A stretch of 64,000 nt of DNA from an uncultured SAR86 cluster bacterium (GTDB lineage Bacteria; Pseudomonadota; Gammaproteobacteria; Magnimaribacterales; AG-339-G14), in NCBI GenBank assembly GCA_902563105.1, contig CACEVU010000006.1, positions 1 to 64,000 on the forward strand. Reading direction: 5' to 3'. The translations under genes and the position numbers were made by a program. This document shows, one piece after another, positions 15,887-19,752 of the stretch. The notes beneath the pieces are model-generated. The model was not told the DNA's origin. It ran no database searches and saw only the letters and a list, made by a program, of their open reading frames with translations. Each line of letters begins with the position of its first letter. Position 1 is the stretch's first letter.

Positions 15887-17113
15887 TTAATCTTTAAATT
15901 CAGGATATGCTTCCACTCCAATTTCAGAAGCATCTAGTCCAGTGGTTTCTTCCTCTTCAGAAGGTCTCAAACCTACTATTGCATTTAGAACAAGTAATGT
16001 TCCCGCACTAGTGATGAAAGCCCATAGGAAGATGGAGATCGCACCAACTGCTTGAGTTCCAAAAGCACCCGCACCAGATAATGGTGTGGCCATGATTCCC
16101 CAGATACCGACAGTACCGTGAGCTGAAATAGCTCCAACTGGGTCATCTATCTTAAGAACTGTGTCAAGGAAAACAACGGAGAAGTAAACAATTATTCCAC
16201 CGATGAAACCGATGATTGTAGCTAATCCACCTGAAGGTGTATCAGGAGCAGCGGTAATTGCAACTAAACCTGCAATTGCTCCGTTAATAGCCATTGTTAC
16301 GTCAGCTTTTCCAGTTAAGACTTTAGCAATCAATAAGGCACCAATTACACCACCTGCTGCAGAGGCGTTAGTGTTTAAGAACACTTGCGCAACAGCATTG
16401 GCATTAGCAGCGTCATTTACAGCTAGTTGGGATCCACCGTTGAAACCAAACCAACCCAACCAAAGGATTAATGCACCTAAAGCTGCAATTGGAATGTTCG
16501 AACCTCTCATGACTCTGACTGACCCATCAGAAGAGTATTTTCCAGATCGAGGACCTAAAATAATTACTGCTGCTAGAGCTGCAGCTGCACCACATAAGTG
16601 GACAACTCCAGAACCTGCAAAATCAGTGTAGCCGATAGCATCTAACCATCCACCACCCCATTTCCAATAACCTTGGACTGGGTAAATAAATCCTGTTAGC
16701 ACGATTGCAAATAAGAAAAATGGAATTAATTTCATTCTCTCAGCAACTGAACCAGAAATAATTGACATTGCTGTTGCAACGAAAACTACCTGGAAGAAAA
16801 AGTCAGCAGCATCTGAGTAACCTAAGTCACTGTTGAAAGTTAATCCATCCAATGTAATTCCCCATGTGCTTCCTAGCATTGGGAAATATGCGTTATAAAC
16901 GCTGTCACCTGGATACATCAAAAAGAAGCCACATACTAAGTACATGACACACGCAATTGAATAAAGACCTAAGTTTTTAGTAACAATTTCTGATACGTTC
17001 TTAGATCTTACTAAACCAGCTTCTAGCATAGTAAACCCTGCAGCCATCCACATTACAAAAGCTCCAGAGATCAATAAATAAAAAGTATTTAAGGCATACT
17101 CTAATTCACTCAT
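15887..17113 (-). CDS. amtB: ammonium transporter
   Basis: MWMAAGFTMLEAGLVRSKNVSEIVTKNLGLYSI, DFAGSGVVHLCGAAAALAAV, ISAHGTVGIWGIMATPLSGAGAFG. Confidence 0.96.
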   Translation of the reverse strand: MSELEYALNTFYLLISGAFVMWMAAGFTMLEAGLVRSKNVSEIVTKNLGLYSIACVMYLVCGFFLMYPGDSVYNAYFPMLGSTWGITLDGLTFNSDLGYSDAADFFFQVVFVATAMSIISGSVAERMKLIPFFLFAIVLTGFIYPVQGYWKWGGGWLDAIGYTDFAGSGVVHLCGAAAALAAVIILGPRSGKYSSDGSVRVMRGSNIPIAALGALILWLGWFGFNGGSQLAVNDAANANAVAQVFLNTNASAAGGVIGALLIAKVLTGKADVTMAINGAIAGLVAITAAPDTPSGGLATIIGFIGGIIVYFSVVFLDTVLKIDDPVGAISAHGTVGIWGIMATPLSGAGAFGTQAVGAISIFLWAFITSAGTLLVLNAIVGLRPSEEEETTGLDASEIGVEAYPEFKD

Positions 17114-17462
17114 AGTTATTCTCCTTTATTGCGTCCTCACCAGTTTCTCCTGTCCTGATTCGAACGACTTCATTAAGTTCTGTTACAAAAATCTTGCCAT
17201 CACCTATCTCACCGGTATTTGCGACTTCTCGCACGGCTCGAATGATGTTTTCGACATCATCGTCTTTACAAGCTACTTTGAACAACGTTTTAGGTTTTGT
17301 ATCCACTTCATAACTAGCTCCACGATAGGTCTCAGAATGTCCTTTCTGGGTTCCAAATCCTTGAGCTGAAATAATAGTAGCTCCACCGGTACCAATAGTA
17401 GATAAAGCACGTTTCACTCCATCGGAGCGAGACGGTTTAACAACTATTGTTAACAGTTTCAT
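17106..17462 (-). CDS. glnK: nitrogen regulatory protein P-II
   Basis: P-II-like protein directly upstream of amtB; T-loop YRGASYEVD and GDGKIFVTELNEVVRIRTGETGEDAI. Confidence 0.93.
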   Translation of the reverse strand: MKLLTIVVKPSRSDGVKRALSTIGTGGATIISAQGFGTQKGHSETYRGASYEVDTKPKTLFKVACKDDDVENIIRAVREVANTGEIGDGKIFVTELNEVVRIRTGETGEDAIKENNYE

Positions 17463-19305: not shown

Positions 19306-19335
19306 TTTACAAAAGTTCTATTTTTTTGATAAAAT
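19306..19335 (+). promoter_or_regulatory. sigma70-type promoter for riboswitch/microprotein unit
   Basis: TTTACA (19306-19311) - 18 bp - TAAAAT (19330-19335), 3' of the suhB stop. Confidence 0.6.
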
Positions 19336-19345
19336 GCACATTAAT

Positions 19346-19479
19346 CGTTCATTCAATGCTCTTTTTTAGTGCATTGAACGGAAGTAGGAAGATAGGAAAA
19401 CCTCTTTATATACGATGTGTATAAAGGCAAGCTAGTACCTTTTTTGGGAACGAGACCGAATATCTACCGAAGGAACGCG
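19346..19479 (+). ncRNA. glutamine riboswitch (glnA / Downstream-peptide family)
   Basis: P1 CGTTC(19346-19350)/GAACG(19473-19477); P2 TTCAATGC(19352-19359)/GCATTGAA(19371-19378); conserved junction cGGAAGTAGG (19379-19388) and CTACCGAAGGAACGCG (19464-19479), which I recognise as the family signature. Located upstream of a small YRG-motif ORF. Confidence 0.82.
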
Positions 19480-19539
19480 TTACGAGGGTGTATGCCGGGA
19501 GGCACATGAAACATAATCGAAACGAAAACTGGAGGCGAT

Positions 19540-19704
19540 ATGTCTACTTACAGAGGTATCAAAGTCACTGAAAACAACCTTCACGTTGAGAACAGAAAAT
19601 CTCAACCAGGAGTTTACAGAGGCGTAAAACATGATGCTATCGAATCAGATAAGTCAGATAAAGCACAAGACGGTATATACCGTGGTGTGAAGCATTCTGC
19701 TTAA
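19540..19704 (+). CDS. 54-aa YRGVK-repeat microprotein (DUF4278-like motif), riboswitch-controlled
   Basis: Manual translation MSTYRGIKVTENNLHVENRKSQPGVYRGVKHDAIESDKSDKAQDGIYRGVKHSA*; SD GGAGG at 19531-19535. Too short for the supplied ORF track. Confidence 0.88.
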   Translation: MSTYRGIKVTENNLHVENRKSQPGVYRGVKHDAIESDKSDKAQDGIYRGVKHSA

Positions 19705-19725
19705 CTACTAGATAGTTGAAAATTA

Positions 19726-19752
19726 GGGAGATCTTCGGATCTCCCTTTTTTA
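19726..19752 (+). terminator. intrinsic terminator with UUCG tetraloop
   Basis: GGGAGATC-TTCG-GATCTCCC followed by T-run. Confidence 0.92.

Follow-up and report, generated by a model that had tools for sequence, protein, structure and literature searches.

How do streamlined cells such as those of SAR86, one of the abundant heterotrophic groups in ocean surface waters, sense their nitrogen status? This question is raised by a compact transcription unit in a SAR86 genome (1.2 Mb, 94% complete), located on a stretch of 64,000 nucleotides that we refer to as the window. An initial annotation, made from the letters alone, had described it as the glutamine riboswitch unit of a heterotrophic gammaproteobacterium, and this description is now supported by an Rfam model, by covariation and by conservation across the SAR86 order. 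The parts it listed are all present in the sequence: the promoter, the P1 strands CGTTC/GAACG, the P2 strands TTCAATGC/GCATTGAA, the junction strings CGGAAGTAGG and CCGAAGGAACGCG, the Shine-Dalgarno GGAGG, a 54-aa ORF and a UUCG-capped terminator. It mentioned neither the insertion in P3 nor the identity of the ORF as a DUF4278 gene.

To which glutamine-binding family does the RNA belong? The annotation had named it a glnA / Downstream-peptide RNA and proposed a covariance-model search as a check. With the Rfam models, this search gave a significant match to RF01739 (Glutamine) at 19344-19481 on the forward strand, scoring 43.4 bits where the gathering score is 35. For a search of the 64-kb window with all 4227 families, the E-value was 3.6e-6, so the match is not a product of chance. 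With curated thresholds applied, cmscan found three tRNAs in the window and, as the sole other RNA, RF01739. The Downstream-peptide part of the name did not hold, as RF01704 had no match in the window even at E = 10. Both are glutamine aptamers located 5' of short DUF4278 ORFs, glutamine-II (Downstream-peptide) in Prochlorococcus (PMC6316151), but the window RNA is a three-way junction without the pseudoknot-type consensus. Because its long P3 reduced the window copy to 17 bits in a generic whole-genome Rfam search, we built a dedicated model, R1. This model scores the window RNA at 117 bits (E = 1.8e-29), a value that is not independent, as the window was among its source sequences. A second candidate aptamer in the window genome (C2:32292, 17 bits) lies inside a hisS-like coding region and was dismissed as a chance match.

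The core of the aptamer agrees with the known family. The 5' strand of P1, CGUUC (19346-19350, +), pairs with the 3' strand GAACG (19473-19477, +), and both are invariant in an alignment of 37 diverse sequences. Between them are the P2 hairpin UUCAAUGC...GCAUUGAA (19352-19378, +) and the conserved loop-E strand CGGAAGUAGG (19379-19388, +), which is invariant in alignment A2. Most of the 37 sequences had been retrieved with patterns that include CGGAAGTAGG and CGAAGGAACG, and only the invariance of the P1 5' strand is therefore independent of the search. Covariation in homologous loci, also suggested in the initial annotation, was found in P2, where all five tested pairs vary on both sides in a compensatory manner. 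P1 is not mutated in any of the 37 sequences and, never varying, yields no covariation evidence. In the crystal structure of the glutamine-I aptamer, the ligand is contacted by C1, G59, C58 and G22 (PMC6698751). P1 and CGGAAGUAGG carry the ligand-contacting nucleotides, although the mapping of G22 onto the window sequence is inferred. The window RNA thus shares P1, P2, the loop-E strand and the closing CCGAAGGAACG with glutamine-I (glnA) RNAs. It is likewise sited in a 5' leader and followed by a DUF4278 gene, as in cyanobacteria, but its host is a heterotrophic gammaproteobacterium. Judged by its sequence, it is a real glutamine-I riboswitch unit, for which binding of L-glutamine is inferred.

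The window RNA differs most from its family in P3. While the RF01739 consensus spans 53 positions with a short P3, which is typical and does not contact the ligand, P3 in the window holds a conserved three-way-junction domain of about 78 nt (19389-19466, +), which consists of a P3 extension and the hairpins P4 and P5. The Rfam model treats these 78 nt as an insert. As the full match is still above the family threshold, we take the window RNA as a variant of RF01739. None of the 4227 Rfam models matched the P3 domain. Its conserved strings are GAAAACCUC, AGC(U)AAGUA and GAAC(A)GAGACCGA, and among the 37 diverse sequences GAAAACCUC, AGC, AGUA and GAGACCGA are invariant. These sequences were chosen by the aptamer core and GAAAACC, so the invariance of those strings is partly due to selection. 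The helices are supported by covariation. Their positions are paired in 96.2% of cells, compared to 81.7% in shuffles (none of 500 reached 96.2%), and pairing falls to 33-56% when the helix partners are slid. Over P2, P3, P4 and P5, 14 pairs vary on both sides. In addition, whenever AGC(U)AAGUA has the additional U, GAAC(A)GAGACC has the additional A: 64 sequences have neither, 20 have both and none is mixed, which suggests that the inserted U and A pair.

Scanning viral contigs for the aptamer core with a gap of 50-80 nt identified 77 loci, most of which have the same embedded sequence, and a genome scan found the domain in many SAR86 genomes and in one other gammaproteobacterial MAG (L273). 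Searching the viral contigs for the P3 domain alone added 34 loci, all within a glutamine aptamer, whose core was slightly changed in some cases; no domain standing outside a glutamine aptamer was found among the viral contigs searched. Matches with gaps of 50-85 nt that lack GAAAACC were mostly tandem short aptamers, other long P3 inserts 5' of DUF4278 genes or, in non-marine genomes, chance matches. The P3 domain appears to be a structured RNA module that is absent from Rfam and has not been described before, with strong support from covariation.

Aptamers that bear the P3 domain have a constant genetic partner. Across all loci collected, 93 of 93 distinct domain-bearing aptamers lie 5' of an ORF that holds two or more YRG or WRG repeats. 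The same holds for all five other long-P3 aptamers, from Halieaceae, another gammaproteobacterial MAG and a cyanobacterium, compared to 23 of 114 short-P3 aptamers (1/34 in genomes). Since the loci were collected by RNA patterns and not by the ORF, the link to DUF4278 was not built into the sample. They are related to each other, however, and the Fisher p-value does not count independent events. In the window, the ORF (19540-19704, +) encodes 54 aa with three YRG repeats, and its match to PF14105 is exactly borderline (25.3 bits, cut-off 25.3); relatives score 20-24 bits and the Halieaceae protein 40. Two ORF subtypes occupy the same genomic site, MSTYRGIK (54 aa) and MYYRGIK (55 aa). A dN/dS of 0.34 was found across eight relatives, with 0.34 and 0.41 for the two subtypes. 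The small DUF4278 gene is coding and under purifying selection. In five loci of the MYYRGIK subtype only (L011-L015), a 30-aa ORF (MYK.RHQKLGKIDAIIGLFLISTVLILF..) overlaps the DUF4278 stop; its product has a hydrophobic stretch that resembles a transmembrane helix.

A related pairing is known from Synechocystis, where gifB has a glutamine riboswitch and encodes the glutamine synthetase inactivating factor IF17. IF17 inhibits GSI, and its inactivating part lies in a C-terminal extension beyond DUF4278. Both systems combine a glutamine aptamer with an N-terminal DUF4278, but the SAR86 protein ends at 54 aa and has no counterpart to the C-terminal extension by which cyanobacterial proteins of IF17 size are longer (143 and 155 aa in L241 and L247). 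The glutamine synthetase of the window genome is also GlnII-type and not GSI.

Conservation of the unit within its genus is high. The sigma-70-like promoter TTTACA-18-TAAAAT with an extended -10 TG (19306-19335, +) has the same elements in the genus relatives that were inspected. As one TTTACA/TAAAAT site per 601 bp is within shuffle expectation, this conservation is better evidence for the promoter than the motif itself. The Shine-Dalgarno GGAGG (19531-19535, +) lies 4 nt 5' of the ATG at 19540, within a CUGGAGG that is conserved in the genus. The unit ends in a UUCG-capped intrinsic terminator (19725-19751, +) with a 9-bp stem (stem-loop 19725-19746), 5 GC and a T run. The DUF4278 and secF genes converge on this terminator, which directly adjoins the stop codon of secF and may act on transcripts from either side. 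The riboswitch-DUF4278 unit is kept in 13 of 16 genomes of the genus and is placed between suhB and secF wherever the locus has enough flank. In the three genomes without the unit, suhB was also not found, in a search that had no positive control. This stretch may therefore be absent from those assemblies, and an assembly gap is possible.

The nitrogen genes amtB and glnK are nearby. The annotation had pointed to their proximity, and profile matches identified both: glnK, encoding P-II (17106-17462, -; PF00543 92 bits, NF007946 127 bits), ends 1.88 kb upstream, next to the marine subtype ammonium transporter gene amtB (15887-17113, -; TIGR03644 590 bits, cut-off 514). Further neighbours identified by profile match are SuhB (PF00459 205 bits), SecF and SecD. 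The gene order in genus g1 is amtB-glnK-trmJ-suhB-unit-secF. Two other genus-level SAR86 groups have the unit on the opposite side of amtB, convergent or in line, and in Halieaceae it is divergent from porin-glnK-amtB. The link thus recurs at different exact sites, again adjoining amtB-glnK, but not in every genus. As the unit is located elsewhere in L217 and L219, the proximity is recurrent rather than universal.

Relatives of the unit are also found in viruses. Capsid, portal, sheath and terminase genes of T4-like type are present on the viral contigs examined, whose capsid proteins are closest to those of the uncultured phage C48C1, OM43 phage Melnitz and SAR11 phage HTVC008M. In two T4-like marine viral contigs, the riboswitch-DUF4278 unit lies near the major capsid gene (L157, 4483-4604, -; L143, 11961-12080, -). 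Isolate phages searched with the DNA of the unit and with the DUF4278 peptide gave no match. The marine myophages Melnitz (OM43) and Mosig (SAR11) share the aptamer core with the window RNA, infect heterotrophs and belong to the same capsid lineage as these viral contigs, but have short aptamers only, with matches of 47 and 52 nt that lack the P3 domain, in agreement with a previous report (PMC9004378).

How might the unit act? Immediately 3' of P1 starts a further element, P6 (CGUU/AACG) with an inner hairpin P7 (19478-19524, +), which stops 6 nt short of GGAGG. It is paired in 91.5% of cells, and eight of ten pairs vary on both sides. Elsewhere, P6 reads CA/UG and CUA/UAG; other relatives have only a stem in this place, or none, and some downstream elements are quite different. 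When the aptamer fold was imposed, the predicted accessibility of the Shine-Dalgarno in the window rose from 0.50 to 0.96. Across 27 sequences it rose in 20, with the mean increasing from 0.40 to 0.56. The energy model leaves out loop-E pairs, and these predicted shifts speak only weakly for a switch that turns translation on. The P3-domain CCUC was considered as an anti-Shine-Dalgarno, as it pairs with the Shine-Dalgarno in some free-state folds, and rejected; the domain also occurs on quite different leaders.

We propose the following model, for which there are no binding or expression data and for which the folding evidence is weak. The unit would be transcribed from its own promoter, and in SAR86 the riboswitch would govern the translation of one small DUF4278 protein. 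Plentiful glutamine would bind the P1-P2-P3 junction and stabilise P1, so that P6 could form directly behind P1 and leave the Shine-Dalgarno open. The DUF4278 protein would then be made under nitrogen sufficiency and probably damp nitrogen assimilation, by acting on AmtB-GlnK, glutamine synthetase or another target. In this way, the unit would provide the glutamine signal that GlnD and GlnE give in other Gammaproteobacteria. By analogy, the ON direction is favoured by cyanobacteria, where glutamine riboswitches are mainly found before DUF4278 genes and glutamine activates (PMC6316151). A glutamine-activated translational switch that makes a small DUF4278 regulator at nitrogen sufficiency is, in our judgement, the likely function, with binding, ON direction, translational control and target all inferred.

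The opposite direction, in which glutamine reduces downstream expression, might fit the copies located 5' of glutamine synthetase, glutamate synthase and amtB genes, as repression by glutamine is sensible for glutamine synthetase and ammonium transport genes. We consider it improbable for the window, because cyanobacterial switches of both glutamine-I and glutamine-II type before DUF4278 genes activate with glutamine, and because the Shine-Dalgarno is predicted to open once the aptamer folds. Even less credible is a cassette that came recently from a phage and has no function in its host. The same RNA and DUF4278 gene are common in marine T4-like viral contigs, but conservation within the genus, fixed synteny and purifying selection all speak against such an origin. 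Moreover, the unit is present in four SAR86 genera of the family, and there are no phage genes among the identified neighbours.

Within the model of a glutamine-activated switch, the role of the P3 domain can be read in two ways. It may have no ligand of its own and be a purely architectural addition, through which the affinity of the glutamine aptamer or the kinetics of its folding are tuned. We lean towards this reading, as the AGUA and GAA strands are loop-E-like, the three-way junction is compact, and the unrelated long P3 inserts in Halieaceae and a cyanobacterium suggest that scaffolds are swappable. Still, the unpaired parts vary less in sequence than might be expected of a pure spacer, and the strict link to DUF4278 genes is not easily accommodated. 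Both would rather fit a switch with two inputs, where the glutamine aptamer is combined with a second sensor in P3 that binds the DUF4278 product, as autoregulation, or some other ligand. About 30 nucleotides of the domain are invariant while its helices covary, it was never seen outside the glutamine aptamer, and every long-P3 aptamer precedes a YRG-repeat ORF. It is also combined with several different downstream elements, and so looks like part of a sensor and not of the output. However, the association would also follow from common descent of one cassette, loops can be conserved for RNA tertiary structure alone, and no binding data exist for the domain. We therefore regard a two-input switch as unlikely, though worth keeping in mind. 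The wider proposal, that the P3 domain is a second sensor, notably of the DUF4278 product, and that the RNA is the glutamine sensor of SAR86 without GlnD and GlnE, remains speculative and is held with slightly less confidence still.

In other Gammaproteobacteria, the glutamine signal is supplied by GlnD and GlnE. GlnE was absent from all 200 SAR86 genomes, and GlnD was not found in the genus of the window, where ~734-aa proteins gave only weak ACT-domain matches (the E. coli and Caulobacter controls were positive). Of 200 genomes across the SAR86 order, 118 have GlnD, which is absent from the whole family of the window and from genera g7 and g11. The riboswitch was found in 65 of the 82 genomes lacking GlnD and in 45 of the 118 bearing it, an association that reflects about three losses and was not corrected for relatedness. 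The window genome encodes a GlnII-type glutamine synthetase beside NtrB (G000:C4, ~12-15 kb; L286), and no type I glutamine synthetase over threshold was found in it. As NtrB and GlnK persist, it has not been established that the riboswitch is the sole nitrogen sensor. The PII-NtrB branch may still be in place, but without the protein that informs it of glutamine.

The window unit is one of many glutamine riboswitches in this order. Using R1, we found them in 110 of 200 SAR86 genomes and in 30 of the 40 better ones, with up to six per genome. Short-P3 copies, which are single, double and once triple, precede genes for type I GlnA, GlnII-type glutamine synthetase and glutamate synthase, as well as a TorF porin, a TonB receptor and small ORFs. 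In SAR86 g11, three consecutive aptamers (ends near 542, 594 and 665 in L325, G137:C2:18600-22100) lie 5' of a TorF-family putative porin, which single or double aptamers precede in L320, L323 and L328. A short riboswitch is located directly 5' of the glutamate synthase large subunit in SAR86 g3 (L334 and L335, from G025 and G033). Another is found 5' of a ~483-aa protein that, from a reading of its sequence, resembles a circularly permuted ATP-grasp enzyme (L331 and L333, from G021 and G024). Tandem glutamine riboswitches are already known, with 157 doublets and 4 triplets (PMC9481103).

Uncultured marine Alphaproteobacteria also have tandem aptamers, before amtB and glutamine synthetase (L222, L224, L235, L245, L253; L223, L278). 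This glutamine synthetase is type I-like and beside P-II. In the alphaproteobacterial order of G567, 66 of 120 genomes were positive, with up to eight copies per genome. A general gammaproteobacterial trait can be ruled out, since a class-wide sample of 369 genomes contained only four positives, three SAR86 and one other. The glnA motif was listed from cyanobacteria and marine samples (PMC2864571), and a 2018 review considered glutamine riboswitches restricted to cyanobacteria, ascribing the 'marine metagenome' cases to uncultured strains (PMC6316151). Our literature search, limited to open-licence papers, found no mention of SAR86 with a glutamine riboswitch or with glnD; given this scope, priority cannot be claimed. 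The occurrence of putative glutamine riboswitches through two groups of ocean heterotrophs is an unexpected host range.

What appears to be new is the P3-embedded domain and this host range. Both rest on sequence, structure conservation and distribution, while binding, the direction of control and the protein target are inferences. As the P3 module lies outside Rfam and has a strict genetic partner, a two-input riboswitch is directly testable. The SAR86 loci supply organisms for the 'marine metagenome' glutamine riboswitches of the 2018 review (PMC6316151). If our interpretation is true, part of the SAR86 order would read glutamine by RNA, as cyanobacteria do, and not by GlnD and GlnE, and this reading would extend to several nitrogen genes.
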